A DNA stretch of 40,628 bases, from the IMG/VR virus record IMGVR_UViG_3300032334_001072, positions 1 to 40,628 of that record; one strand, written 5' to 3'. Shown one piece after another: positions 1 to 40,628 of the stretch. Each line of letters starts with the position of its first letter. Position 1 is the stretch's first letter. Made by a program: the position numbers and the translations under genes. Source of the DNA: a virus. Under the pieces are notes generated by a model, which saw only the letters and a list, made by a program, of their open reading frames with translations, searched no databases and was not told where the DNA came from.

Positions 1-222
1 AACGCGGACAATTGCCCCGGGCTTGATTGCGTCATCATTGATATAGATTTTTTTGTATTTGAAAGTCGTGAATGGTACGGATAACAGCCTGTCGGGCACG
101 CGGAACACGGGCCGTCCATTGTCAAATCCAACAACCGTCAGGCGGTAATGAATCGTTGACATATCGCTGCACGACATAACGCCACGGATCTTATCGCCAA
201 TTTCCAAATTGTGTCGGTTCAT
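1..222 (-). CDS. Unknown small protein, C-terminus beyond window
   Basis: Only the first 74 codons are present; the reading frame runs off the left edge. The start ATG (222-220) is preceded by AAGGAG with seven bases of spacing, so the start is well supported. The visible protein begins MNRHNLEIGDKIRGVMSC and ends near KPGAIVRV, a pattern of short beta strands with a Pro-Gly turn that suggests a small SH3-like barrel. I do not recognise a family. Its leader holds a hammerhead ribozyme (250-303), and the Shine-Dalgarno block CCAAGGAGT is the same as in the genes starting at 40007 and 36188. It would be cotranscribed with the gene at 304-612. Confidence 0.75.
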   Translation of the reverse strand, partial: MNRHNLEIGDKIRGVMSCSDMSTIHYRLTVVGFDNGRPVFRVPDRLLSVPFTTFKYKKIYINDDAIKPGAIVRV

Positions 223-249
223 TTCAAAACTCCTTGGTTGCAACATGCT

Positions 250-303
250 CCCGGACGGGTTGGCTTTCCCCGTTTCGGCCCCCGCCGGGGCCTCATCAGC
301 GGG
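250..303 (-). ncRNA. Type I hammerhead ribozyme, copy 1
   Basis: Read on the minus strand, all core elements occur in order. Stem I 5' strand CCCG is at 303-300 and the core CUGAUGA at 299-293. Stem II is GGCCCC, loop GGCG, GGGGCC (292-277). GAA is at 276-274. Stem III is ACGGG (273-269), a nine-base loop, then CCCGU (259-255). C17 is at 254, and the stem I 3' strand CGGG at 253-250. The predicted cut is between 254 and 253. Ends open in helix I make it type I. It starts directly after the UGA stop (306-304) of the preceding gene and ends 28 bases before the next start codon. Hammerheads are known in phages; self-cleavage here is inferred from structure. Confidence 0.88.
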
Positions 304-612
304 TCAGTTTTCAAAACGGCAATTGGCGGCCTGATCAACAACCAATCCGCAAAAATTTTGAACATCTTGAATGGTTTTGAAACATTCCTCAACATCAGCC
401 GGATAATAACATTCAACAACCCTATCACCGCCGGACTCATAATTTTGTTCGCAAATATGATAAGCTTCATCGACAAATGCTAATTTTTCAGGGGTTGCAT
501 TTGCGAACCACGCTTTCAAATCTGGATCACGAAAGTATGAATAAACGTGTCTTGAGTACAACCGCAACGTATTGCTTTTGAACTGATTCATGATGCTTTT
601 GAACTGATTCAT
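304..612 (-). CDS. Hypothetical 102-residue protein
   Basis: The start ATG at 612 is preceded by GAGG with eight bases of spacing. The protein has no signal peptide or membrane segment and is Cys- and aromatic-rich (motifs YYPADVEECF, NFCGLVVDQ). I do not recognise a family. The first 14 residues are a near-perfect duplication, MNQFKSI followed by MNQFKSN, from a 21-bp tandem repeat, so a second ATG lies seven codons in; the first has the better Shine-Dalgarno. It is probably the first gene of the leftward operon, since the region upstream carries the only good divergent promoter candidate. Its stop codon abuts hammerhead copy 1. Confidence 0.72.
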   Translation of the reverse strand: MNQFKSIMNQFKSNTLRLYSRHVYSYFRDPDLKAWFANATPEKLAFVDEAYHICEQNYESGGDRVVECYYPADVEECFKTIQDVQNFCGLVVDQAANCRFEN

Positions 613-657
613 GGCCTCATCCTCGTTATCGTTTTAAAAATCATCAACCCGAACCAT

Positions 658-691
658 AAGCTAATCGGCAACGTGTAGACGTGTCAACACG
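658..691 (-). promoter_or_regulatory. Candidate leftward promoter with overlapping operator
   Basis: On the minus strand a consensus TTGACA (687-682) is followed after 17-18 bases by TTAGCT or TAGCTT (664-658), a weak -10. The -35 lies inside the near-palindrome CGTGTTGACACG (691-680), an arrangement typical of repressor control. It points at the gene starting at 612. Related TGTTGAC sites lie at 748-757 and 768-777, nearer the ribbon-helix-helix gene. Confidence 0.45.
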
Positions 692-747
692 AATTCCAAA
701 GATTTTTTGAGCATGGCAAAAACCCGCAAGAAATGCGTGTTGCGGGA

Positions 748-777
748 TGTTGACACAAACCCCAGAATGTTGACGTG
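748..777 (+). promoter_or_regulatory. Repeated TGTTGAC operator-like sites
   Basis: TGTTGACACA (748-757) and TGTTGACGTG (768-777) are direct repeats whose starts are 20 bp apart, about two helical turns. The second decamer recurs inverted inside the downstream gene at 883-892, and the core recurs in the palindrome at 680-691. Ribbon-helix-helix proteins commonly bind such short repeats cooperatively, so autoregulation by the product of 805-1050 is a reasonable inference. No clear -10 for a rightward promoter is visible. Confidence 0.4.
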
Positions 778-804
778 TTGTTTTCTCAATCAATGGGCTT
801 TCCA

Positions 805-1050
805 ATGAAGAAAAAAATTGAATCCGCCAAACCCGCTCAACCCGTCATCATGGGCCGGCCGCCGGACGGCGAACCGCGCAGACACGTCAACATGAGGTTA
901 CCCGATACAATTTTGGCCCGGGTTGCCCATGACGCAACCCTGACCGGACGAACCAAAACCGAGGTAATTCGGCGCGTGTTGGAGGAACATTTGCCGCCAT
1001 TGCCGGCCCCGCAAAAATCCCGAAAAATCAAAAACCCTATGGCAAAATAG
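805..1050 (+). CDS. Ribbon-helix-helix DNA-binding protein
   Basis: The 81-residue product has a basic N-terminus and then the fold pattern of an Arc/MetJ/CopG-type regulator: a strand (HVNMRL), helix A (DTILARVAHDATLTG) and helix B (TKTEVIRRVLEEHL), roughly residues 30-66. It is one of only two plus-strand genes and diverges from the leftward operon, with repeated TGTTGAC sites between, so it is a likely repressor of that promoter and of itself. The start is uncertain: ATG805 was chosen because the basic tail begins there, but ATG793 and GTG775 are in frame and none has a Shine-Dalgarno. The last codons lie inside a copy of the dispersed repeat (1022-1075). Confidence 0.72.
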   Translation: MKKKIESAKPAQPVIMGRPPDGEPRRHVNMRLPDTILARVAHDATLTGRTKTEVIRRVLEEHLPPLPAPQKSRKIKNPMAK

Positions 1051-1075
1051 AATTATTCTTTTTGCGGTAACCGGA
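1022..1075 (+). repeat. Dispersed hairpin element, copy 1
   Basis: This shares the core AAATCAAAAACCCTATGG (1025-1042) exactly, but inverted, with 1393-1410, and continues with similarity through TTTTTGCGGTAACCGG, matching the inverted copy's TTTTTGCGGCAACCG. It overlaps the 3' end of the ribbon-helix-helix gene and encodes its last residues. With copy 2 it flanks the gene at 1089-1316 as inverted repeats. Confidence 0.6.
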
Positions 1076-1088
1076 TTGAGGAGAACCA

Positions 1089-1316
1089 ATGCCAACATTG
1101 ATTTGCCCGGGCATGGCCAAATTGGTTGAAAAACCTGACGGTTGGTATTGGGAAATACAATTGAGCATGGGCAAGGAATTGGTGGAATATCCAATTCACA
1201 AATTGCCCGGCCTTTGGAACGAACCAAACCCCATGCCGTTTGTCACGCGTGATGACGCGATTGTTTATTGGCAATTGGTTGTTGAACCCGTGTTGGTTTT
1301 AACAGACATTTTTTGA
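1089..1316 (+). CDS. Hypothetical 75-residue protein
   Basis: This is a plus-strand gene with a strong GAGGAG Shine-Dalgarno five bases before ATG1089. The product is rich in Trp, Pro and acidic residues (PDGWYWEIQLSMG, VTRDDAIVYWQLV) and has no signal peptide or clear membrane segment. I do not recognise a family. It follows the ribbon-helix-helix gene by 38 bases and is probably in the same transcript. It is bracketed by inverted copies of a dispersed repeat. The downstream copy starts at its stop codon and includes a hairpin that may end transcription. The convergent end of the late leftward operon lies about 115 bases beyond. Confidence 0.7.
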   Translation: MPTLICPGMAKLVEKPDGWYWEIQLSMGKELVEYPIHKLPGLWNEPNPMPFVTRDDAIVYWQLVVEPVLVLTDIF

Positions 1317-4786: not shown

Positions 4787-5074
4787 TCACGGACGGAACA
4801 CGGATTCGTTCACCTCAAATTCTGATTCGGCGGCCCCCTGCCCGGTTCCGGTTCCTTCCCAACGGAAATAATGAACCCCGGACGCGGCCGCCAAATAATC
4901 ATATTGAAATTGGCCCGTTGCCGTTTTTGTCACTTGGCCCGGGTAATCGCGTTGAAGCTTGGTTCCATCGGGCAATTGAATCAATAAAATCAATGTACTT
5001 GGATCAACATACGTTCCCGATAAATTTTGAAATGTTACCATTAACCGAACCAAATCGCCAATATCGTAATTCAT
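4787..5074 (-). CDS. Small beta-sandwich virion protein
   Basis: The 95-residue product (MNYDIGDLVRLMVTFQNLSG onward) follows a pattern common in phage Ig-like structural domains: a DP-x-T strand, a PDGT turn, a tyrosine-rich QFQYDYLAA strand, YFRWEGTG, and a final acidic strand. ATG5074 was chosen because GGGAGG precedes it and it overlaps the stop of the repeat-protein gene (5071). It is probably an accessory tail or fibre component made with that protein. Confidence 0.7.
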   Translation of the reverse strand: MNYDIGDLVRLMVTFQNLSGTYVDPSTLILLIQLPDGTKLQRDYPGQVTKTATGQFQYDYLAAASGVHYFRWEGTGTGQGAAESEFEVNESVFRP

Positions 5075-7173
5075 TGGACGGCCTCCCAAACCCTGTAAGT
5101 ATAACTCAAAATTGGCGTGTCAATGATTGCCCGCATTGTTTTGGCGCAAACAATAACCGATTCGGTTTTTGTTGCCCGAACGCGGGTTGTTTCAATGGCC
5201 CATGATTTCAAAATCAATTCTTCGGAAACCAACGGCAATTCCCTGAATGCTAGCATTGTTTGCGTTCCAATTGAAATGACCGACGCGGTTTTGGCCCGAA
5301 CAACAATTGTTTCGGATATTGAGGAAACAACCGGGTAAACAATTCGGGGCCATGCCCAAACCGAAACCCGAACCAAAACGGAATCGGCAACGCCATTGGC
5401 CAAAACCGGGTTGATGATAACGGTTTGGACCAATCCGGCCCCGATTGCCGAACCGGCCCCGGAACCCGCCGGCCTTGAAATGGTAATTGTTCCCGGGCCC
5501 GATCCGGCGGCGGTTGCTCCGGTTCCGCCGGCGGCCGATCCGGCCGGGCCGGTCAACGATACGGTTGCCATTGCGCCAACAGAAATGGCCGTTGCGGCCC
5601 CGATTCCCGCCGGGTTGGCCAATGTCACGGTTTTGGCCGGGCCCGTAGCCAAGGCCGTTCCCGTGGCCGATCCGCCGGGCCCGGTCAACGTCAACGTTGG
5701 AATGCTTCCCAATGATATCGCCGGAACGTTCCCGGTTGCCGCCGTTATTGTCACGGTTGCCATGGGCCCGGACGTTGTTGCCGTTCCGGTTGCCAATCCG
5801 GCCGGTTGACTCAAAACAATATCGCCGCCCAACGGGTTGGATGTTTCGGCCGTTCCCCGCCCTGACGCGGCCCCGGCCGATATCGTCACGGTTGCCGCCG
5901 GCCCGGTTGCCCCGGCCGTTCCGGTTGCCAATCCGGCCAACGCCGTCAACGCAATTGTTCCGGTTGGGCCGGACGTTGTTGCCCCGCCGGTTGAGGAGCC
6001 CTCCAACGCCGTTATTGCAACCGTTCCGCTCAATCCTGATGTTGTTGCCCCGCCGGCCCCGGAACCTGCCAACGCGGAAATTAATACGGTTCCGGTTAAG
6101 CCCGTTGCGGTTACAACCGTAACAACCGAACCGGCCCCGGTTGCCGCCGTCAACGTTATTGTTCCGGTTGCCCCGGACGTTGTTGCCGTTGCGGTTCCGG
6201 CCCCGGCCATGGCAACCAATGCAACCGTTGCCATTTGGCCGGACGTTGTTGCCGTTCCGGCCCCCGAACCCGTTGGCCCGGCCAATGTCACGGTTGAGGC
6301 AACCCCGGACGTTGCGGCCCCCCCTGACGCGGCCCCCGCCATGGCAACAATGGAAAGCGTTCCAATTGCCCCGGACGTTGTTGCCGTTGCGGTTCCGGAA
6401 CCCGCCAAGGCCGAAATCGTTATTGTTGCAATTGCCCCGGACGTTGCAGCGGTTCCGGCCCCTGAACCCGCCGGCCCGGTCAACGTCAACGTTCCAATTG
6501 CCCCGGTTGCCGTAATTACCGCCGTTGCCGAACCGGTTGGGCCCGATACGGTTATAGTTCCGCTCAATCCGGACGTTGTTGCCCCGCCGGAACCCGCTCC
6601 CGCCAATGCCGAAATTGTTATTGTTTTTGAAAGGCCGGACGTTGTTGCCGTTCCCGATCCGGCCCCTGCCAACGCGGAAATTGTTACGGTTCCGCTCAAT
6701 CCTGATGTTGCAGCCGTTCCCGAACCGGAACCCGCCAAGGCCGAAATCGTTATGGTTTTATTCAATCCGGACGTTGCGGCCCCGCCCGATCCGGCTCCCG
6801 CCAATGCAACCAATGAAACGGTTGCCATGGCCCCAGACGTTGCGGCGGTTCCTGAACCCGAACCCGCCAACGTCGAAATTGTTATGGTTGAGACGGCTCC
6901 GGACGTTGCCGCCGTTCCGGTTGCCGATCCGGCCAACGCCGTTAATGTCAACGTTCCAATTGAACCCGTTGCCGTGGCAACCGTGGCAACCGTACCTTCG
7001 CCGATTGGGGCCGAAATAGTTACGGTTACCATTGCCCCGGACGTTGCCGCCGTTCCCGATCCGGAACCGGCCAACGCCGTCAATGTTATGGTTGTAATTG
7101 CCCCGGACGCCGTGGCATTTTTAATTTCAAATGACGAAATTGAAGCTGTTGATAACGGAAAATGGCCAAGCAT
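5071..7173 (-). CDS. Repeat-built fibre-like protein, 700 residues
   Basis: After a 24-residue lead, residues 25-580 consist of 25 consecutive units, most exactly 22 residues, with consensus like xxxTITISALAGSGSGTATTSG. A different 120-residue C-terminal region follows, richer in Arg, Trp and Tyr. The composition is almost all Ala, Gly, Ser, Thr and small hydrophobics with hardly any charge, as expected for a stacked beta structure such as a solenoid or fibre shaft. The start has GAGGG seven bases upstream. It lies in the fibre end of the tail operon, after two small fibre-region genes. Receptor binding by the C-terminal domain is an inference. Confidence 0.75.
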   Translation of the reverse strand: MLGHFPLSTASISSFEIKNATASGAITTITLTALAGSGSGTAATSGAMVTVTISAPIGEGTVATVATATGSIGTLTLTALAGSATGTAATSGAVSTITISTLAGSGSGTAATSGAMATVSLVALAGAGSGGAATSGLNKTITISALAGSGSGTAATSGLSGTVTISALAGAGSGTATTSGLSKTITISALAGAGSGGATTSGLSGTITVSGPTGSATAVITATGAIGTLTLTGPAGSGAGTAATSGAIATITISALAGSGTATATTSGAIGTLSIVAMAGAASGGAATSGVASTVTLAGPTGSGAGTATTSGQMATVALVAMAGAGTATATTSGATGTITLTAATGAGSVVTVVTATGLTGTVLISALAGSGAGGATTSGLSGTVAITALEGSSTGGATTSGPTGTIALTALAGLATGTAGATGPAATVTISAGAASGRGTAETSNPLGGDIVLSQPAGLATGTATTSGPMATVTITAATGNVPAISLGSIPTLTLTGPGGSATGTALATGPAKTVTLANPAGIGAATAISVGAMATVSLTGPAGSAAGGTGATAAGSGPGTITISRPAGSGAGSAIGAGLVQTVIINPVLANGVADSVLVRVSVWAWPRIVYPVVSSISETIVVRAKTASVISIGTQTMLAFRELPLVSEELILKSWAIETTRVRATKTESVIVCAKTMRAIIDTPILSYTYRVWEAVQ
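5434..7101 (-). repeat. 25 tandem 66-bp coding repeats
   Basis: The DNA encoding residues 25-580 of the fibre-like protein is a degenerate tandem array with a 66-bp period; a few units are 60-78 bp. Adjacent units differ by many silent and conservative changes, so the array is old rather than newly amplified. Unit number could vary between relatives by recombination. Confidence 0.8.
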
Positions 7174-7573: not shown

Positions 7574-8754
7574 ATTATAAATCCCGTTATTCCGGCAACA
7601 GACGAGGAATACCATGTTGTTGTTCCGGTTGTTGTTCCAATTTCATTCCACGAACAGAAATGGTAACCAATGCCCGGATATCCCAAATTTGTACTGGTTC
7701 CAGACGTTATTGCGTTGGCGGCGGCCGAACGGATTGTAGCCTGACGATATGTTCCGTTTGGCATTGCCGTTGAATTTGATGTTGTATCGTAGCCAACGGC
7801 AACGATACCGCCTTGCGCCGCCGTTGAATTTGATAGAATAGCGTTCACTTGCAATTGGGCAAACGTGTCCGCAATTCCAACAACAAAATCAACCTGATTC
7901 GTTGCCGTCGCCCGCGCCTGACGCCATGTTGCCGTGTTGTAGGACCAAGACGCCGTTGCGTCCGTTACCGCCAACATTCTTGGGGTTCTGTTGTAATAAT
8001 TCCATACAAACCGTGATGTTATTGTGTCTTGTAAATATCGTGTTCCAACCGCGTTGGAGCGTATTGTTCCAACATACCGCCGCGTTGCGTCTCCTGATTT
8101 TACCAATATGCCGTCCTGCAATACCAACGCGGTTGATCGAACCGTGTCGCTGGTCCAATCCGGCCCTGTTTCAAGCGTTGGTGTATTTGCTCCCGACAAT
8201 TGTGAATTGTAAACAAAAACGTCTTTTGGCCTGTTTGCGGTCAATGTATTGGCCGGAATTGATAACGATAATTCAGAAAACAAATGAGGCCGCCACAATG
8301 CCCCGTCATACAAATCAATTCTGTTACTAGAATATTGAGCGTAGTAAATTGTTGTTGCGTTTGAAACGTCCGCAACCGTTACCGGCGTTCCCGATGTTAA
8401 TGTTAATCTTCCGCCGGGTATCGGGCTTGAAATTGTTTGGCTTATGGCCGGAATGGTAACAAAAACATCTTTGGTTCCCGATGAAAACGAAACAAGCTGC
8501 GGCGTTCCAAGTGATAACGTTGATGATGAAATCACGGACGTTCGGGCCAAACCCGATCCGATCATATCAACGGTTCCCAACCCGACTTCCCATTCCGAAG
8601 CGGTTTGATGAGAAATAACATAATAACAAGTGTTGTTTGTTCCGATTGAAGCCAAAAATGTTTGGAAACCGGAAACCGCGCCGGCAAGGGTAATTGAACC
8701 CGTGCCGGTTGTTGTTGTTGTTTCCCTGACGCGGTCAGAATAACGAAACGCCAT
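7567..8754 (-). CDS. Tail/host-recognition protein
   Basis: The 395-residue protein starts MAFRYSDRVRETTTTTGTGS, followed by a domain I recognise from phage tail tip or fibre proteins (ITLAGAVSGFQTF, then ASEWEVGLGTV). The rest is a Ser/Thr/Asn-rich beta domain with Tyr-rich strands, typical of adhesins. AAGGA lies seven bases before the start. It is followed within overlaps by the small fibre-region gene and the repeat fibre gene. It probably forms part of the tail tip or side fibre. Confidence 0.72.
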   Translation of the reverse strand: MAFRYSDRVRETTTTTGTGSITLAGAVSGFQTFLASIGTNNTCYYVISHQTASEWEVGLGTVDMIGSGLARTSVISSSTLSLGTPQLVSFSSGTKDVFVTIPAISQTISSPIPGGRLTLTSGTPVTVADVSNATTIYYAQYSSNRIDLYDGALWRPHLFSELSLSIPANTLTANRPKDVFVYNSQLSGANTPTLETGPDWTSDTVRSTALVLQDGILVKSGDATRRYVGTIRSNAVGTRYLQDTITSRFVWNYYNRTPRMLAVTDATASWSYNTATWRQARATATNQVDFVVGIADTFAQLQVNAILSNSTAAQGGIVAVGYDTTSNSTAMPNGTYRQATIRSAAANAITSGTSTNLGYPGIGYHFCSWNEIGTTTGTTTWYSSSVAGITGFIIC

Positions 8755-11565: not shown

Positions 11566-12729
11566 TTACGCTCCCAAAACAGCTAAGAAATTACCAAATT
11601 TCATATTTGAAACCTTGGTTTCCAATTCATCAGGATTGTTTTCGTTTTGTAACAATGGAAATGTTATTTGAACATTCATTGCCCCGGCCGATTCGGTACT
11701 CAAAAACAAATATGGTGAAAATGGCGAATCATACGAACCCGAATCAATGTATTGAACGCCTTTTGTGTAATGCCAAAATCGAACGGTTGCAATTCTTGGG
11801 GATTTCAAAACCGAACCGTTTGACGAAGACAAATAAAACCATATTTCCAAATTGATGATTTGCCGTTTTGGATCAAGCCATGGGCGCGGTGTTTCGTCAA
11901 ATGGCGTCAACGTGAAATCGCGCGGCAATACGCCAAGCGGCATATCGCCAACCCATGCCCCTGTTGGTTCCAACGTTATTGGATTGGTTGCCGTTGCGTC
12001 CCATTTCCGTTTTTTAACGGGAACCTTGACGCATGCCGCATTAAAAAACGCAATATAGGAAATGCCGTCAAACGTTCCGATATTTGAACCTTCAGAATTG
12101 AAAACGTTTATTGGGTTGCATAACGGCGTCCAATTTTCACGGATTGAGGAATTTGTCTTATCAACCAAATTTGGCGGATCTTCGGGTTTCCTAGCGTCCT
12201 CAAAATATGTTTGGCCAAGCATTGGTTCTGGAACGCCACGCGACGAATAACACCAACCGCCGGGCATAAGATTCCCAAGCCAATCGTCTTCGTAAACCGA
12301 CAAATCCGCCGGCGTCCAATTGACATTTTCAACGCCTTGAAATGGCGTCTCAATTTGATCTCGCAACATCAAACGTTTGTATGTTGTTGAATTCTGAAAT
12401 CTTGGCGCGTAAAACGTTTCGTAAAACCCAATCATCCGCGATTCATCCCATTCCGATATTTCCGCCAAATCAAATTTCAAATTTGAATCAAAAACAAATG
12501 GGCTAACGTTTTTTCCGTAATATGTTGCCCCGTAATTAACATCAGGGCTTGTCATCGGCGGCGGCGGTTGAGGCCCGCCACGGTTAACATGCTTTCCAGT
12601 TATGTCATTCAATCCGCACAATAACGCATTTGAAGACATAACGTGTAACGATACGGAACCAAGGCCGTTTCCGGCGCGGACATTTGGGCCAATACACGTT
12701 CCGTCCAATAATCGCCCTTGAAATGTCAT
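11566..12729 (-). CDS. Tail-region structural protein, unknown
   Basis: The 387-residue protein starts MTFQGRLLDGTCIGPNVRAG and is rich in aromatic residues, Pro and Asn, with several extended segments (WYDP-like and FPLLQNENNPDE). There is no signal or membrane segment. Its start overlaps the upstream stop by four bases. It belongs to a run of five unrecognised proteins between tape measure and the adhesin-like gene, where distal tail, hub and baseplate proteins are normally encoded. Confidence 0.65.
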   Translation of the reverse strand: MTFQGRLLDGTCIGPNVRAGNGLGSVSLHVMSSNALLCGLNDITGKHVNRGGPQPPPPMTSPDVNYGATYYGKNVSPFVFDSNLKFDLAEISEWDESRMIGFYETFYAPRFQNSTTYKRLMLRDQIETPFQGVENVNWTPADLSVYEDDWLGNLMPGGWCYSSRGVPEPMLGQTYFEDARKPEDPPNLVDKTNSSIRENWTPLCNPINVFNSEGSNIGTFDGISYIAFFNAACVKVPVKKRKWDATATNPITLEPTGAWVGDMPLGVLPRDFTLTPFDETPRPWLDPKRQIINLEIWFYLSSSNGSVLKSPRIATVRFWHYTKGVQYIDSGSYDSPFSPYLFLSTESAGAMNVQITFPLLQNENNPDELETKVSNMKFGNFLAVLGA

Positions 12730-30957: not shown

Positions 30958-32112
30958 TTATGGCGTTTCATGGCGGACGGCCGTTTGCCCGGTCAATTCT
31001 TCCCAACGTTTTATAATCACGTCAACGTATTCGGGCAAAATTTCCATTCCGTAACATGCCAACCCAAGCTGTTCACAGGCTACCAACGTCGTTCCTGAAC
31101 CCAAAAACGGATCATAAACAACGTCAGGGCTGCCCGCCTTATCAATACACCATTTCATTAACTCAATTGGTTTTTGTGTCGGATGGACGCGCGGAATTCC
31201 GGATTCGGACGCCTTGGCAAATCCCATCCAAACATGACGGAACATGCGCGCGGTATTTTTGATATTTGTCCAAGCAATTTCACAATCGGATTGATCATTG
31301 CTGTTTTCATTTTTTTCGCGTTTGTCCCAAACAAACCAAGACGGAGAAATCGGCAATTTGTTAGCGTAATGGTTTGCCCCCCATAGTACAATCTTTTTGA
31401 ATTTCATGAACGGCGTTGGGTCAAACGGTTTGTCATCATTCACAACCTTTATGTTTTTGAATTTTGTTTCAAACGGGTTGTTTGGTTCGGCCCCGTGAAC
31501 ATAATTGATTCCGTACGGCGGGTCAGTTATGCAGCAATCAATTTCAGAATTGCCTTTGAGCAAATCAAAATCTTTGGGGTTGGATGAATCCCCGCACAGA
31601 ACGCGGTGCTTTCCAAGCAACCACAAATCGCCCGGTTTGGTTATCGGGATTGCCGGCGGTTCGGGAACGTCATTGCCTTGGCCGGATTCGGTATCGTCGC
31701 CCGGAATGATTCCGGCCCCAACGGCCAATTCGGATAACATGGTTGCCAACGCTTGGTTATCGGTTTGAATATTCCTCAATACCGCGTCAAGCTTGGCCCC
31801 GTCCGCAATGGCCATGGCCCCCAACGGATCGAACGTTGCCAAAATTTTGTCCGCCTCATTTTCGTCAACATCCAAAATCAACACGGGAATTTCCATTGTT
31901 CCGGCGGTTTCAACCCGAAGGTGCCCGTCAATCAACATCAACCCATTTTCGGTTTCCCGGGCCAACACGGCCCCGGCAAACCCTATTTCCGCCAATATGC
32001 CTTGCAACGCTTCGGCTTGGGCCTTGGGATGTTTCCGCCAATTGCGCGGATTTGGCAACAAATCCCCGGCGGGAACACGGCGGAATTCTTTTATTCTATC
32101 GCGGATTTTCAT
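30958..32112 (-). CDS. ParB-like nuclease domain fused to DNA methyltransferase
   Basis: The 384-residue protein starts MKIRDRIKEFRRVPAGDLLP. Residues about 10-130 are a ParB/Srx-like domain (NPRNWRKHPK, LIDGHLRVETA). The rest is an amino-methyltransferase with TDPPYG (DPPY at 197-200), VHPTQKP and DPFLGSGTT (334-342). The DPPY-before-FxGxG order is typical of beta-class N6-adenine or N4-cytosine enzymes. Such fusions are common in phages and may protect phage DNA from host restriction. No cognate restriction enzyme is seen. Confidence 0.88.
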   Translation of the reverse strand: MKIRDRIKEFRRVPAGDLLPNPRNWRKHPKAQAEALQGILAEIGFAGAVLARETENGLMLIDGHLRVETAGTMEIPVLILDVDENEADKILATFDPLGAMAIADGAKLDAVLRNIQTDNQALATMLSELAVGAGIIPGDDTESGQGNDVPEPPAIPITKPGDLWLLGKHRVLCGDSSNPKDFDLLKGNSEIDCCITDPPYGINYVHGAEPNNPFETKFKNIKVVNDDKPFDPTPFMKFKKIVLWGANHYANKLPISPSWFVWDKREKNENSNDQSDCEIAWTNIKNTARMFRHVWMGFAKASESGIPRVHPTQKPIELMKWCIDKAGSPDVVYDPFLGSGTTLVACEQLGLACYGMEILPEYVDVIIKRWEELTGQTAVRHETP

Positions 32113-33318: not shown

Positions 33319-35450
33319 TCAATCGCCTCGCATTCCCGGGATTCGTCAATGTCCGAAATTAGGCTCCACCATTTCTTGCCGTCAATTTCCGATTCCTCAA
33401 CCGGGGCCGCGCGCATGGCCCGATATACGCGGTCAATTGAAATGCCGGCGGCCCCGGCGTCATCAATCACCGTTTTAACCCGCCGGTTGCCCAATGCCAA
33501 ACATTCTATCAACCATGCCGTATCCTCGGCCAATTTTGACGGACGGCCACGGGGCCGGGCCGGTTGGCGGCCGGGTTCGTCATTGCCGGCCATGGCGGCG
33601 GATAGCGGCGGGTTGTTATCATATTCGTTTTTGTCGCCCATTGTTATTCCCAACGGATTGGGTTTTTTGGCGTTGGTTTTATCAACCCACAAACGCCGCC
33701 GGTTCGGTTCGCCTTCCGGATTGGGTTGTTCCAATTTGATGACCTGACGGCATGCGCCAACAATCCGCCGGCCTAACGCCTCCCCGGATTTGCTCAAATG
33801 CGTTACCAACACAATCGCGCAATTGGTACGCGTTGCGATTTCGGCAAGCGGTTTGAAAAATTGTTTGGCCTCCTCGGGCCGTGTTGTGTTTCGATCCGTG
33901 GCCGAACCGCATGTATCAACAAAAACCAAACCCGGTTGAACCCGCCTCAATCGGCGTTCAAATTCCGCCAAGTCTTCCACGGTATCCAAATTGGTTCCGG
34001 CATATGGATTGGAACGCCGGCCGTTCAAAACCAATGCCTCCGGCGGAAATTCCATTTCGTTAGGCAATGACGTTAATTCCGACCATTGGGAATCGGCGGC
34101 AATCCAAACGGCCACGGTTCCGGCCGGGAACGTTGGCGGGGTTCCATCGGGCCAAGGCAATCCCAAATGAATCCGCCTCAACAAATCGGCACAAAACCGG
34201 GTTTTTCCTATGCCCGGATCGGACGCAATTGCCGTTATTGTTCCGCGCTGAATCCAACCCGGCCATGCCCATTGAACCGTAGCCTGAACCCTCAATAGGT
34301 CAACCGCTGTGGCGTCCGGGTCATCCGCTTCGGTTTCCGGGGCAGCCACGGCGTCCGGGCCCGTGTATTGCGTGCGGGCCGGCAATTGGACCGTCCGGCC
34401 GGTTGACGGCCTTGGCGGGCCATTTTGAGCCAACAAATGGCCACGGTTCGGGCCGGCGTTGCGGGCCGCGTCACGGAATTTGTGGGCTAATTCGTTGTCA
34501 TTCCATGGCGGTTGGCAACGCGCGTTCCATGGGGCAATAGCGGCGGCCGCCTCATCAGCGGACAAACCAAACCCGTCAACCAAAATCATGGCAACATGGT
34601 AACAATGGGAATGCCCGCCGGAACCGGAAACGGCCGGCGGAACGTTCGACAAATATGCCGCCGCCCGTTTGACCGAATCAGGCTGCCCCCGTTGGGACTC
34701 AATCGCGGCCAATGCCAAATCTTGGGTTGCCCATGCGGCCAACAACCGCCGGATAGCTGCCGGCGTATTGTTGTTGCGGGCCGCGTCAATGGCGGCCCGT
34801 TCCGGCGCGGCGGTAACAAATGCTACCCTGTGGGGCCGTTCGGCCGTCTCAATTCCCTTGCGTGCCGTTGTTCCGTACAATTTCCAAATCCGGCTGGCGT
34901 TGTAGGTTTTGGTATCAACCCGGGCCCCGGCGGACGAACAGCGTTGGTCCAATCCGGCCAACAACGCCTTGATTTCATTGGTTGCAATTTCATCATTGGC
35001 CCGGGCGATTGGATAACTCAAATGCCAACCATTGCCCGAACACGCAACAATCGGGCCCCTGAACCCGGCCGATTCCATCGCGGATTGAACGTTGCATAAA
35101 ACCCGCCATGCCTCGCGGCGTTCGTCATCGGTTGCGGACGTGTCGCGGGGCCGAACCGGGTCAACGTCAATCAAAATCCAACGGCGTTCGGCAATGTCAA
35201 CATCGGCCGTTGTTTGCCCGGCCGGCTTGATTTCGTTGGTTGCCGGCCGATTGATCGGGTTGGGAACAAAATAGACTCCCCGGAACCCGCGCATTTCGGC
35301 GGCCGCGCGCGCCATGCCTTCCAAATGGTTGGCGTCAAACGTCCCCGATAGAATTTGGCCGGTTGGCCCGAACGCGCGCAATTCTGTTATGGCGTCATCG
35401 GAAACAAACAATTTCAAATATGCCGCGATTCGTTTCGTATCGTCTGTCAT
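33315..35450 (-). CDS. Primase-polymerase fused to RecA-like helicase
   Basis: The 711-residue protein has an N-terminal archaeo-eukaryotic-type primase region: a WILIDVDP acid motif (D95, D97), ACSGNGWHLS (about 136-144) and SRIWKLYGT. Then comes a PriCT-like helical part (about 260-335, WNARCQPPWNDNELAHKFRD). A C-terminal RepA/DnaB-like ATPase (about 400-600) follows, with ASDPGIGKT Walker A (410-417), LVFVDTC Walker B and IVLVTHLSKS, and last a helix-turn-helix tail. It probably makes primers and unwinds the fork. No replicative polymerase is visible in the window. Confidence 0.85.
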   Translation of the reverse strand: MTDDTKRIAAYLKLFVSDDAITELRAFGPTGQILSGTFDANHLEGMARAAAEMRGFRGVYFVPNPINRPATNEIKPAGQTTADVDIAERRWILIDVDPVRPRDTSATDDERREAWRVLCNVQSAMESAGFRGPIVACSGNGWHLSYPIARANDEIATNEIKALLAGLDQRCSSAGARVDTKTYNASRIWKLYGTTARKGIETAERPHRVAFVTAAPERAAIDAARNNNTPAAIRRLLAAWATQDLALAAIESQRGQPDSVKRAAAYLSNVPPAVSGSGGHSHCYHVAMILVDGFGLSADEAAAAIAPWNARCQPPWNDNELAHKFRDAARNAGPNRGHLLAQNGPPRPSTGRTVQLPARTQYTGPDAVAAPETEADDPDATAVDLLRVQATVQWAWPGWIQRGTITAIASDPGIGKTRFCADLLRRIHLGLPWPDGTPPTFPAGTVAVWIAADSQWSELTSLPNEMEFPPEALVLNGRRSNPYAGTNLDTVEDLAEFERRLRRVQPGLVFVDTCGSATDRNTTRPEEAKQFFKPLAEIATRTNCAIVLVTHLSKSGEALGRRIVGACRQVIKLEQPNPEGEPNRRRLWVDKTNAKKPNPLGITMGDKNEYDNNPPLSAAMAGNDEPGRQPARPRGRPSKLAEDTAWLIECLALGNRRVKTVIDDAGAAGISIDRVYRAMRAAPVEESEIDGKKWWSLISDIDESRECEAIE

Positions 35451-35950
35451 TGTTCCAAATCCTTGGTTACCAAATTGATTGAACGCCTCAAAAACCGTTT
35501 CATTTTGGCCATTGCCCGAAGAAATTTCTGGCTAACGGCCTGTCGGGAAATTTGCAATTCGTTGGCACAATCCGTGATTGATTTGCCTTCCATCATTTTT
35601 TCCATGATTTCCCTATCGGCGGGAATTAAACAAACCATGGCGGTTTGAACGTCAACCACGGCGTCGATAATTGAAACAACATCAAAATCATCAGGAACAA
35701 ATTCCATGTTCGGGGCAACCGTTTTGGGCCGGTTGTACTGAACCCTCATTTTGTCGTGACGCAATTGCCGAACCACGGCGTTAACCCATGTTGAGAACGT
35801 TCCGCGTTCCGGGTCAAAAATGTTCAACCGTTTCCAAACATGCAAAAACGCCGTCTGGAACCAATCATCATGCTCCCCATACGGGAACCGATTTGCCGCG
35901 TCTCCGATGATTTTGGCAATATCGGAATCATTCAGGTTGGCTGGTTTCAT
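35447..35950 (-). CDS. Small sigma-70-family factor
   Basis: The 167-residue protein has region 2 (HDDWFQTAFLHVWKRLNIFD, then ERGTFSTWVNAVVRQLRHDK) and region 4 (ITDCANELQISRQAVSQKFL), linked by a short spacer, as in extracytoplasmic-function-type sigma factors. It may direct host RNA polymerase to phage late promoters. ATG35950 was chosen because the longer frame to 36070 lies inside the csrA gene and is Arg-rich nonsense. The start overlaps csrA by 23 bases and the stop overlaps the primase gene by four. No anti-sigma gene is seen. Confidence 0.82.
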   Translation of the reverse strand: MKPANLNDSDIAKIIGDAANRFPYGEHDDWFQTAFLHVWKRLNIFDPERGTFSTWVNAVVRQLRHDKMRVQYNRPKTVAPNMEFVPDDFDVVSIIDAVVDVQTAMVCLIPADREIMEKMMEGKSITDCANELQISRQAVSQKFLRAMAKMKRFLRRSINLVTKDLEQ

Positions 35951-36188
35951 TTTTGGATTCCGCCAATTGTTGTTCGGCCAACGCGACGAACGCAGCAATT
36001 GTTGCCGCCTCCCGTTTGGCCATGACGGAACGGCGGGCAACCCGCAACGCCGTTGGGCCGTCAATGCCAACCTTGACGGAACCTGATTTGTTATTGAATT
36101 TCATTATCCGTACAACAAAATGAACCCCGCCAATTTCAAATAACAAATCGTCATCCCGATTTTCTGGACGAACCGCAACAATCAACAT
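35928..36188 (-). CDS. csrA: CsrA-like translational regulator
   Basis: The 86-residue product starts MLIVAVRPENRDDDLLFEIG and has the CsrA pattern: a first strand MLI, a central beta strand HFVVRIMKF, then VKVGIDGPTALRVARRSV with the conserved Gly-Ile, Pro and a late Arg matching the RNA-contact region. The helical tail is longer than in E. coli CsrA. CsrA binds GGA motifs in leaders to control translation. Its own start region has AAGGAG and CAGGA flanking the start (two GGA motifs), a typical autoregulation layout. Upstream lie structured RNA and a tRNA-like element. Confidence 0.68.
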   Translation of the reverse strand: MLIVAVRPENRDDDLLFEIGGVHFVVRIMKFNNKSGSVKVGIDGPTALRVARRSVMAKREAATIAAFVALAEQQLAESKNETSQPE

Positions 36189-36992: not shown

Positions 36993-37970
36993 TTATTTGG
37001 CCGCCATGGTTGCCATGGTTGCCAATTCATCAATCAACAACGCCGCCTGTTGTTTCGTCAATTCTTGCGATTGTTTGACGTTGAACCGGGTTTTTACCGA
37101 TTCATAGAATTCGGCCCCAACGCCGGCGGCCGAACCTAGGCTGCGGATTTCAGCCAATTGTTTGCCGGTTGCCAACGCTGGTTTCCGCGTTGCCTCAACC
37201 GGGGCCGGTTCGACGGCCGGGGCCGCCTCAATCAATTTGGGCAACCCAATCATTGGCTCGGGCTGAACGGACGGTTTGCCTTCCAACCATGCCGCCATGA
37301 TTGCCCCAAACGCTTGGTTGGGTTTTGAAACAACCGAATCCGCCAATAACGGAATTCGCGATTTTGTTACGATTAGCCTGTGTTCAAGGTCAATATCGCC
37401 AACAACATCGAATTCGTATTCCAGCCCGTCTCGTTGGATTGGGGCCATGCCAATTTTGCGCGGAACATTGCGGCCCGTGCGCGGATCGGGCTCCACAATG
37501 TATTCGGTTTTGGAGCGCATGGTTGCAATAACATGACAAGGGGAGGAAACAATCGCCTCAACCATGGCGTTATGGGCCGGCGTAACCTCCCGCCATGCCC
37601 CAAATGAATTGGCCGATTTGGAACGGGCAACGGCCGCGTCAACCATTTCCAACGCGCCGCCACGGCCACTCCAAGCATGGGTTAGGCTGTCAATAATTAT
37701 GATATCATAACCGGCGTTTTCGGCGGCCTTCATGGCGTCAACGTAATTAGCCGGGCTGAATGACGCCATTTCCAACACGTCAAAATTAAACAAATCGGCA
37801 TATTTCGACGCGGAACCGCGCTCCGTGTCAATCACGGCAATTCGTCCGTTGGGATTCAATCCCCGGGCAATGGCCATGGCCGAATATGTTTTTCCTGAAC
37901 CGGACGGCCCAATTAACGCCAACCGTAATCTGGCGCGTGATTTCACGGCCTTTTTGAATTCTAATGTCAT
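36993..37970 (-). CDS. Sak4-like RecA-family ATPase
   Basis: The 325-residue protein has Walker A GPSGSGKT (21-28), AVIDTERGS, and Walker B IIIIDSLTH (about 90-98). It resembles AAA_24/Sak4 phage ATPases, single-strand annealing or recombination proteins with a RecA core. The C-terminal third (Pro/Glu-rich linker, then ATGKQLAEIRSLGSAAGVG) is an added helical module. ATG37970 has GAGGG eight bases upstream. Paired with the DUF669 gene. Confidence 0.82.
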   Translation of the reverse strand: MTLEFKKAVKSRARLRLALIGPSGSGKTYSAMAIARGLNPNGRIAVIDTERGSASKYADLFNFDVLEMASFSPANYVDAMKAAENAGYDIIIIDSLTHAWSGRGGALEMVDAAVARSKSANSFGAWREVTPAHNAMVEAIVSSPCHVIATMRSKTEYIVEPDPRTGRNVPRKIGMAPIQRDGLEYEFDVVGDIDLEHRLIVTKSRIPLLADSVVSKPNQAFGAIMAAWLEGKPSVQPEPMIGLPKLIEAAPAVEPAPVEATRKPALATGKQLAEIRSLGSAAGVGAEFYESVKTRFNVKQSQELTKQQAALLIDELATMATMAAK

Positions 37971-38082
37971 GACACAAACCCTCAATCAATCAACCTGAAC
38001 AGCGGGCAAAATTACCCGCAACAACCATTCCGGGAATGATCCGGCAACGCAATAACGTTGTTGCCAACATGGTTGGATTTTG

Positions 38083-39056: not shown

Positions 39057-39526
39057 TTGCTGCCCCCCTGAACCATTGATGAATCCATTGCCCGGCCGAT
39101 TCCGTCAACAACGCCGGCCGCCGTAATCACGGCCCCTAATTCCCGGCAAATCCGGGCCAAGGCCGCGTCCAATCCCCGCAGGTTGGAATCTGGCCCCGCC
39201 AAATTCATTCCGTGTGCCACCGCCGAATCTAGGGCCGCAAATGCCCCATACAAATTGTCACGGTTGGCCCGCAACAAATCGGCCATGGCGTTTCCTCGGA
39301 TTTCGTCCGCCAACGCCAATGTTGCCCGGCACTCAATTTCGCGTAGCCAACCCCATGATTCAGAATGAAAAATGGTTTGTTCAAACAACATATCCCAATC
39401 GTCTTTTGTGACCGGTTCAAATTTCTTGAGAACCGTTGGCACAATATCGGAAAAATGTTCAATCCAATCGGCGGATTGGGTTGGATATTTTTTTGCCAAA
39501 TATAACAAAAATTGTGCGCGCGTCAT
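39053..39526 (-). CDS. Hypothetical 157-residue protein
   Basis: The product starts MTRAQFLLYLAKKYPTQSAD and is helical and acidic overall, with Trp-rich DDWDMLFEQTIFHSESWGWL and a Met/Ser-rich end. ATG39526 was preferred because GGGGG sits six bases upstream; the ATG at 39538 has a purine block only one base away. No family. It overlaps the next gene by four bases. A GC-rich hairpin lies in its leader. Confidence 0.65.
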   Translation of the reverse strand: MTRAQFLLYLAKKYPTQSADWIEHFSDIVPTVLKKFEPVTKDDWDMLFEQTIFHSESWGWLREIECRATLALADEIRGNAMADLLRANRDNLYGAFAALDSAVAHGMNLAGPDSNLRGLDAALARICRELGAVITAAGVVDGIGRAMDSSMVQGGSK

Positions 39527-39558
39527 GACAACCCCCATGCTCCGTTTTACTCAACCCC

Positions 39559-39582
39559 GGCCGGCGGCCCCAACCGCCGGCC
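39559..39582 (-). other. GC-rich leader hairpin
   Basis: GGCCGGCGG and CCGCCGGCC pair perfectly over 9 bp around TTGGGG (minus strand), starting 12 bases after the upstream stop (39596-39594). No U tract follows, so termination is unlikely. It occupies the same stop-to-Shine-Dalgarno slot as the hammerheads in neighbouring leaders, but the CUGAUGA and GAAA core is absent. Confidence 0.55.
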
Positions 39583-39593
39583 TCAACCCTGAA

Positions 39594-40007
39594 TCAGAAT
39601 TCAGCAAAAACCCGGCGGGCCTGCCCGTCAATCATTGTTTCAAAATGCCCGGTTGGGCCCTCAATAAACGATTCAATGATTTCGTCAGGGGTTGCCTGCC
39701 GTAATTTTTCGTTACTATCCGAATCGTTCAAATCAATATCGGCCTCCCAAATTTGTTCCATTAATCCGTCGAAAATCAGGGCAAGAATATCGTCATCGGA
39801 AACATCGCAATCATAAACGCCAATTTTAATTTGTAAATCATTTTTGTTTTCTGTGGTAACCAAAATTTTGCCCGATGAATGAAACGTCACAAACCTATCA
39901 ATTCGGGTTCCATCGCCCATTATCCCGCGAATATTGTCAATTTCCAATCCAATTTGATATCCAAGCTTCGCTTTGATTGCCCGCTGAATGTTCGTCAAAT
40001 TTTCCAT
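39594..40007 (-). CDS. Acidic hypothetical protein, 137 residues
   Basis: The product starts MENLTNIQRAIKAKLGYQIG, with a regular series of beta strands (DRFVTFHSSGKILVTTENKN, LQIKIGVYDCDVSDDDILAL) and an acidic end. ATG40007 has AAGGAG eight bases upstream; the longer frame to 40088 runs through ribozyme copy 2 and is a shadow. The leader contains the whole hammerhead. Acidic small proteins in this position are often host-takeover or anti-defence factors; nothing specific is seen. Confidence 0.68.
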   Translation of the reverse strand: MENLTNIQRAIKAKLGYQIGLEIDNIRGIMGDGTRIDRFVTFHSSGKILVTTENKNDLQIKIGVYDCDVSDDDILALIFDGLMEQIWEADIDLNDSDSNEKLRQATPDEIIESFIEGPTGHFETMIDGQARRVFAEF

Positions 40008-40041
40008 TACCAGACTCCTTGGTTTCGGTTTGCAACATGCT

Positions 40042-40095
40042 CCCGTACGGGTTGGCTTTCCCCGTTTCGGCCCGTGCCCGGGCCTCATCAGCGGG
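40042..40095 (-). ncRNA. Type I hammerhead ribozyme, copy 2
   Basis: The core matches copy 1. Stem I is CCCG (40095-40092), CUGAUGA at 40091-40085. Stem II is GGCCCG, loop GGCA, CGGGCC (40084-40069), with one base pair swapped relative to copy 1 (C-G to G-C) and pairing kept. GAA is at 40068-40066. Stem III is ACGGG (40065-40061) with CCCGU (40051-40047), and residue 17 is A at 40046. Stem I returns with CGGG (40045-40042). Predicted cut between 40046 and 40045. It starts two bases after the UAA stop of the upstream gene. Confidence 0.9.
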
Positions 40096-40097
40096 TT

Positions 40098-40526
40098 TTA
40101 CAATGTTCGTTGGTACGCCAACGCCGCCTCAAATTTTGATTTTTTTTCTTCGTCGGTATGACGAAGCCTAATCAAATCTTCAGCCCCAAGGCCAAAACTA
40201 TAGGTTTTACAAATGATCAGAAAAACCCTTGGGTTGTTAACATCCCATCTTGTCGAAACAACCGTAAACCAACCCCAACCGGCCAAGGTTTGCATTCTAA
40301 TAACGTCCCCGGGTTTCAACGCGTCCGCGCGCACAGAACATGATTTGGTTAGCATTTCCATTGCCGCGCGGCCGCGCGCGGTCAAATGCGTGCCATTGCC
40401 CGCACAGCCAAAACATTTGCTGCCGTGTTGAGTGCAATACGAATATTTGCCCGATCCGCCGCAACGCGAACACGTTTGACATTCCCAGCCCTCGGGCGTT
40501 GTCTGTCCAATCGGTTTAATTGCCAT
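40098..40526 (-). CDS. Zinc-ribbon (DnaJ-like) small protein
   Basis: The 142-residue protein has a Cys-rich N-terminal region (about residues 14-44) with CQTCSRCGGSGKY and CFGCAGNGTH, repeated CxxCxGxG-like motifs as in DnaJ central domains. A later part holds ALKPGDVIRM and a beta-rich, Trp-containing segment (LAGWGWFTVVSTRWD). It may bind zinc and nucleic acid or protein. The start is ATG40526 with AAGGA upstream; TTG40532 is too close to that site. Its leader carries hammerhead copy 3. Confidence 0.72.
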   Translation of the reverse strand: MAIKPIGQTTPEGWECQTCSRCGGSGKYSYCTQHGSKCFGCAGNGTHLTARGRAAMEMLTKSCSVRADALKPGDVIRMQTLAGWGWFTVVSTRWDVNNPRVFLIICKTYSFGLGAEDLIRLRHTDEEKKSKFEAALAYQRTL

Positions 40527-40580
40527 GGCCAAATTCCTTCGTTATGGTTGCCAACCGTCTTGGTTGGTTTTTGTGTGCTT

Positions 40581-40628
40581 CCCGTACGGGCGGCGGGCCC
40601 CGTTTCGTCGCCTGCCGGCAACTCATCA
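40581..40628 (-). ncRNA. Type I hammerhead ribozyme, copy 3, 5' edge cut by window
   Basis: UGAUGA occupies 40628-40623, so the first core C and the stem I 5' strand lie outside the window. Stem II is GUUGCC, loop GGCA, GGCGAC (40622-40607), pairing fully with one G-U despite a different sequence from copies 1 and 2. GAA is at 40606-40604, stem III ACGGG (40603-40599) with CCCGU (40590-40586), and residue 17 is A (40585). Stem I 3' strand CGGG is at 40584-40581. It lies in the leader of the zinc-ribbon gene. Confidence 0.75.

Follow-up and report, generated by a model that had tools for sequence, protein, structure and literature searches.

Type I hammerhead ribozymes in successive gene leaders of a phage operon and their possible role in splitting the transcript

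Results

The window considered here, 40,628 bases that make up the whole of the IMG/VR virus record IMGVR_UViG_3300032334_001072 (classed as linear), contains three type I hammerhead ribozymes, each of which lies just upstream of a small gene. These hammerheads probably act as punctuation that divides an operon transcript into messages of one gene each, whose ends would be protected and which could be translated and degraded independently of one another, a reading given a probability of roughly 0.8. It is based on intact catalytic cores, covariance model scores, covariation, the positions of stop and start codons, orientation on a single strand and the presence of arrays in related phages. Counted against it were Rfam scores below the gathering thresholds, minimum free energies no better than those of shuffled sequences, the patchy distribution of arrays and the lack of a common function among the array genes.

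Three hammerheads at the ends of a phage contig

Genes in the window include those for a terminase, a portal protein, a tape-measure protein, a Sak4-like recombinase, a sigma-factor-like protein and a methyltransferase. In terms of the prophage setting in which clustered hammerheads have been described (PMC3088659), the window is a virus contig bearing terminase and portal genes, with no relative being found among cultured phages, either by DNA or by portal protein. A 700-aa reading frame (5071-7173, minus strand) comprises many imperfect 66-bp (22-residue) repeats, while a 384-aa protein (30958-32112, minus strand) presents an N-terminal ParB-like profile match together with DNA methyltransferase profile matches. 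The three hammerheads are as follows:

250..303, minus strand: HHR1 (copy 1), complete type I hammerhead; stem I 303-300/253-250; predicted cleavage between 254 and 253
40042..40095, minus strand: HHR2 (copy 2), complete type I hammerhead; predicted cleavage between 40046 and 40045
40581..40628, minus strand: HHR3 (copy 3), starting at UGAUGA at the contig end; predicted cleavage between 40585 and 40584

Read from 303 to 250, HHR1 corresponds to CCCG-CUGAUGA-GGCCCC GGCG GGGGCC-GAA-ACGGG(GAAAGCCAA)CCCGU-C17-CGGG. HHR2 (40095 to 40042) has the same layout, with GGCCCG GGCA CGGGCC as stem II and A as residue 17, and HHR3 (40628 to 40581) has GUUGCC GGCA GGCGAC as stem II, again with A as residue 17. 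Stem II is thus distinct in each of the three copies, yet is paired in all, and residue 17 is C, A and A, respectively. The elements that define the type I core, namely CUGANGA, GAA, an A-U first pair in stem III and a residue 17 other than G, are complete in HHR1 and HHR2 and are present from UGAUGA onwards in HHR3. The helices, too, are those of type I, with stems of 4, 6 and 5 bp, stem I being open and stems II and III being closed by loops. The 5' arm of stem I of HHR3 falls outside the window, with GCCCGC preceding UGAUGA in an orthologous relative. The coordinates, stems, residue 17 identities and cleavage positions given in the first-pass annotation proved to be correct. As that annotation had also proposed, all three copies are sense to the operon: the minus strand, which is the coding one at either end of the window, bears the motifs as well as the surrounding genes.

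Statistical support and covariation

A descriptor of the type I hammerhead returned two matches in the window, as compared to none in 200 dinucleotide shuffles. Two covariance models were also built. Model R1, prepared from 15 hammerheads of unrelated phages and free of window sequence, assigned 30.1 bits to HHR1 (E = 1.3e-7), 29.8 bits to HHR2 (E = 1.5e-7) and 12.1 bits to HHR3. With model R2, prepared from 142 hammerheads, none from the window, the scores were 45.1 bits for HHR1 (E = 5.7e-12), 43.9 bits for HHR2 (E = 1.4e-11) and, with 5' truncation allowed, 20.8 bits for HHR3 (E = 3.3e-4). The proposed type I architecture and core were borne out by descriptor and models alike, and the hammerheads in the window are confirmed. 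A fourth R2 match at 1625-1678 (18.2 bits) was dismissed as chance, there being no GAAA after its CUGAUGA, as were weaker R2 matches at 34524 and 29822. A CUGAUGA...GAAA pattern match at 11599-11633 was missed by the structural descriptor, and the broad pattern CTGATGAN{8,30}GAAACGGG yielded chance matches for the most part.

The claim that sequence changes in stem II preserve pairing holds not only for the three copies but also across 132 distinct relatives, where covariation is strong. In the R2 alignment of these sequences, which was fitted to the structure and hence is biased toward pairing, 96.5% of cells were paired and 14 of 16 pairs showed double changes. The covariation score of this alignment was 0.774, versus 0.165 for shuffled and at most 0.114 for slid controls. 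A MAFFT alignment of 15 sequences gave a picture in agreement with this, and the closing pair of stem II flips from C-G to G-C between the window and its relative.

Upon minimum-energy folding, HHR1 and HHR2 both showed the hammerhead helices, and truncated HHR3 misfolded. The minimum free energies of HHR1 and HHR2 were no better than those of shuffled sequences (z of 0.76 and -0.02, respectively), a comparison that is uninformative for so short and GC-rich a motif. As to a possible tertiary contact of loop II with stem I, the complementarity of loop II to the strand located 3' of stem I was 3.04 among hammerheads of the CCCG-stem group, versus 2.57 for shuffled sequences (0/200); in the GGTTAA group, it did not exceed that of shuffles. 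In the window, the GGCG and GGCA loops II face AGCAUG.

Gene order around the hammerheads

The genes and putative ribosome-binding sites neighboring the hammerheads, the latter read from the sequence, are listed below, together with the recombinase gene.

304..612, minus strand: gene W, 102 aa; UGA stop immediately ahead of stem I of HHR1; another gene in its place in the relative, L137
1..222, minus strand: gene X, 74 codons before the contig breaks off; 76 aa in L137, with its stop at the UGA of the following hammerhead core
230..235, minus strand: Shine-Dalgarno-like AAGGAG before gene X
40098..40526, minus strand: gene Y, 142 aa, cysteine-rich; follows HHR3; UAA stop 2 nt ahead of HHR2 stem I; missing from L137
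40534..40539, minus strand: Shine-Dalgarno-like AAGGAA before gene Y
39594..40007, minus strand: gene Z, 137 aa; follows HHR2
40015..40020, minus strand: Shine-Dalgarno-like AAGGAG before gene Z
36993..37985, minus strand: Sak4-like recombinase gene, 330 aa; same strand as the array, further down; anchor for finding relatives with syntenic arrays

Because HHR1 and the pair HHR2 and HHR3 lie at opposite ends of the contig, the adjacency of HHR1 and HHR3 had to be addressed by means of a relative. Two contigs of one such relative, L137 and L128, are 99.99% identical, come from different metagenomes and share some 91-95% identity with the window around the array. Both run straight on from window position 1 into the region of gene Z, spanning the window ends. 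In these contigs, gene X ends in ...GTT GCC CGC TGA TGA, such that its stop lies within a hammerhead core. Gene X of the window breaks off at the same GTT, and window HHR3 starts with TGATGA. If the phage represented by the window is colinear with its relative, then about six bases would be missing between the window ends and the minus-strand order would be W-HHR1-X-HHR3-Y-HHR2-Z. This order, inferred from the relative rather than read in the window, supports the earlier proposal that the hammerheads occupy adjacent leaders, and would agree with the description of clustered hammerheads in PMC3088659, namely at least two lying near one another around single genes or short blocks. Each hammerhead was indeed found upstream of a small gene of no known function, as had been noted (HHR1 before X, HHR3 before Y and HHR2 before Z). 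A search with the protein encoded by gene Y revealed a single distant relative, the DNA of which shows no similarity to that of the window.

The proposed processing of the transcript

According to the reading favored here, three type I hammerheads would separate successive genes close to where one phage operon begins, with each ribozyme filling the gap between a stop codon and the Shine-Dalgarno site that follows it. Each would fold in the transcript and cut itself after residue 17, as can be expected given the intact core and the established chemistry of hammerheads. As a result, the message of the downstream gene would start with a 5'-hydroxyl and have a short leader (some 30-60 nt in this phage), and that of the upstream gene would retain, immediately beyond its stop codon, the hairpins of stems II and III together with a 2',3'-cyclic phosphate. 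In bacterial RNA decay, 5'-hydroxyl ends escape 5'-monophosphate-dependent attack by RNase E and 3' hairpins slow exonucleases. Because such ends and hairpins resist decay, separately stable single-gene messages are expected; effects of the ribozymes on message stability and translation are inferred only. Given the positions of stop codons at the core, ribosomes could delay folding. Finally, gene-ribozyme units are also acquired, lost and swapped in this reading, and the breakpoints of these changes lie at the ribozymes.

As to the origin of the transcript, the gene at 35447-36070 (minus strand) resembles a phage sigma factor (phrog_1740), such that phage-specific promoters may drive parts of the genome. 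A scan of window positions 200-1300 found no promoter. Matches at 39400-40628 were weak consensus matches within genes and were left uninterpreted.

Hammerhead rows in other phages

A survey combining pattern scans of IMG/VR with relatives of the recombinase, filtered with the type I descriptor, yielded 227 type I hammerheads (217 distinct) in 134 loci, counts that stem from exact-sequence pattern seeds and do not represent an unbiased census. Two or more hammerheads were seen in 43 loci, the window included, always on one strand and with a median spacing of 526 nt. The same 4-nt start of stem II was shared by only 55 of 196 within-array pairs. When whole records were considered, 11 hammerheads were counted in G032 (24.8-29.5 kb), 10 in G031, eight in both G033 and G034, seven in G042 and six in G041. 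In locus L366, a hammerhead stands before each of nine genes in succession; the upstream stop codons lie -6 to +4 nt from the cores, and the leaders measure 27-41 nt. The rows at L366 5977-9605 (IMGVR_UViG_3300033153_007262) and L370 5090-9606 (IMGVR_UViG_3300015371_000033) contain 9-11 hammerheads, about one per gene, and far exceed the array of the window. Type I hammerheads were also seen in the crAss-like phages cr272_1 and cr131_1 (two and three matches, respectively), including at L372 3632-3704 and 5003-5055 and at L373 4004-4069. The genes found in arrays showed no known function common to them, being mostly without known function, and blastn searches of the other arrays against cultured phages gave short matches only, including to the hammerheads of crAss-like phages, with nothing useful in Tunturi_5.

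Two phages encoding recombinases 55-56% identical to that of the window each contain three hammerheads upstream of the same gene, and have stem sequences and array genes of their own. Arrays were present in four of the 25 recombinase-bearing records searched whole, two of the four being the same phage. Because most recombinase relatives are without hammerheads, the array is accessory and its function is not essential to the lineage.

The position of the ribozymes relative to genes was constrained across the survey. Of 210 distinct hammerheads, 165 (79%) had the stop codon of an ORF of at least 60 codons at -15 to +14 nt relative to the core, as compared to 49 of 681 random positions (7%) and 16 of 214 antisense controls, and the downstream start codon was mostly 20-35 nt from the predicted cut. 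In at least 36 distinct hammerheads, the UGA of CUGAUGA is itself the upstream stop codon. Such placement, with stops inside or a few nt from the core, raises the possibility of regulated ribozymes, in which terminating ribosomes would block folding and so couple cleavage to upstream translation, or in which a ligand or protein would exert control. Stem I and the core would both be covered by a ribosome that terminates there, and gene X in L137 is among the genes that stop at the catalytic UGA. Still, neither an aptamer-like domain nor additional conserved sequence was observed and the compactness of phage genomes also explains tight packing, leaving regulation the strongest of the alternatives to simple message splitting, albeit an unlikely one.

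Exchange of genes at the ribozymes

Comparison of the window with L137 revealed differences with edges at ribozymes. L137 lacks gene Y together with half of each flanking ribozyme and contains one ribozyme, B, at that spot. Ribozyme B is a hybrid, HHR3-like (one mismatch) up to GAAACGGGG and then matching HHR2 and the leader of gene Z; it is what would be left by a deletion or insertion between two ribozymes. Gene W, moreover, is replaced in L137, with homology resuming exactly at the stop codon beside stem I of HHR1. Across 31 pairs of array-bearing loci, which are non-independent, alignment breakpoints were found at 23 of 90 hammerhead junctions versus 55 of 431 other gene junctions (odds ratio 2.3, p = 0.003), an excess that is suggestive only. 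An identical 21-nt leader stretch (GGTTGGCAACC context) is found at window positions 40546-40566, before gene Y, and at L137 605-625, before another gene. In L366, the genes at 7655-7933 and 8438-8698 resemble paralogues and both follow a hammerhead of their own, which points to duplication of gene and ribozyme as one unit.

The hybrid ribozyme, the swapped gene W and the breakpoint counts would all also be expected were the hammerheads mainly module boundaries, short conserved elements at which recombination adds, removes or swaps cassettes of a ribozyme and a gene, with RNA cleavage being secondary. Recombination would, however, require identity and not structure, whereas the stems diverge and yet keep pairing, also within arrays. 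In addition, a conserved element by itself creates alignment ends. It is accordingly rather improbable, more so than regulation, that exchange is their main role, and exchange at the ribozymes is read here as a by-product of repeated short homology, with splitting of the transcript remaining the preferred reading.

Detection by Rfam

When the window was searched at Rfam gathering scores, no family was reached. The best match of any hammerhead family was to RF00008, at 20.0-21.7 bits versus a gathering score of 48.5, and matches to unrelated families (EBER2, TP53TG1 and others) were attributed to chance. With the same library and threshold, no hammerhead was detected in ten array loci of other phages, nor in Pseudomonas phage PaP3, the hammerhead of which is listed among active ones in a supplementary figure on core variants (PMC3088659). 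Model R2 found a sole strong match in PaP3, at 44035-44112 (minus strand), scoring 37.8 bits, below HHR1 and HHR2, and beginning at the nucleotide directly after the stop of ORF67. This match is probably the ribozyme reported to be active there. The first-pass annotation had held that scores below threshold for copies 1 and 2 would refute the hammerheads. HHR1 and HHR2 do indeed score below gathering, but this outcome carries no force, since the same thresholds miss PaP3 and every other phage array tested. The conclusion drawn is that type I hammerheads of phages escape the Rfam thresholds for want of sensitivity. That the window copies are decayed remnants or chance look-alikes devoid of catalytic activity, as the absence of a gathering match might suggest, is hardly credible in view of their intact cores, compensatory changes between close relatives, E-values down to 1e-12 and the lack of matches in 200 shuffles.

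Comparison with known systems

Among Rfam families, RF00163 (Hammerhead_1) and RF00008 (Hammerhead_3) share the catalytic core of the window copies, and RF00008 alone matches them at all, below its gathering score, even though the window copies have the type I strand order, with stem III closed by a loop, and not that of type III. The RAGATH-1 hammerhead (RF03152) is a separate Rfam family that sits near type I hammerheads in the crAss-like phage cr272_1; no match to it was found in the window. The PaP3 match, like the window copies, abuts an upstream stop codon and falls below the Rfam threshold and, unlike them, is a single copy with longer loops.

The closest precedent dates from 2011, when multiple hammerheads flanking single genes or short blocks were described in prophages, in clusters of two to three, namely a triple in Agrobacterium tumefaciens and clusters in Clostridium scindens and Azorhizobium caulinodans (Perreault et al. 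2011, PMC3088659). Self-cleavage was shown for three clusters in vitro and, for the triple, also in E. coli, and it was proposed that long phage transcripts are processed into operon- or gene-length messages (PMC3088659). In 2017, a further paper repeated the clustering and described what hammerheads do in bacteria and phages as a question still open in the field (PMC6155905). The window resembles the prophage clusters in that several hammerheads flank single genes or short blocks in phage DNA. As against the view that an array is the notable part of this locus, arrangements of this kind and the idea of message processing had already been published (PMC3088659).

The differences lie elsewhere. 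The largest arrangement in the main text of PMC3088659 is the triple, as compared to three in the window and 6-11 per row in other IMG/VR phages, and that main text makes no mention of stop codons, whereas here the ribozymes fit between stop and start codons, the UGA of the core can serve as stop and breakpoints fall at ribozymes. A search of freely accessible papers, for the most part of their main texts, returned no rows of up to 11, quantified stop-ribozyme-start layout, stop at the core UGA or exchange breakpoints. What is new here is the scale of the rows, the stop-ribozyme-start layout and the module boundaries, the window itself joining a kind known since 2011. Whether hammerhead rows represent a general and largely unannotated punctuation of phage operons, with one ribozyme per gene between a stop and the next start, one transcript giving rise to as many as twelve messages of one gene each that start with a 5'-hydroxyl, the same ribozymes serving as joints for the exchange of small accessory genes between phages and the whole being hidden by Rfam thresholds, seems an evenly balanced question. 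Phage hammerheads of this type are missed by standard RNA annotation. The stop codon-ribozyme-start codon layout, repeated up to eleven times in one phage, allows the idea of message processing to be put to a direct test by mapping of RNA ends.
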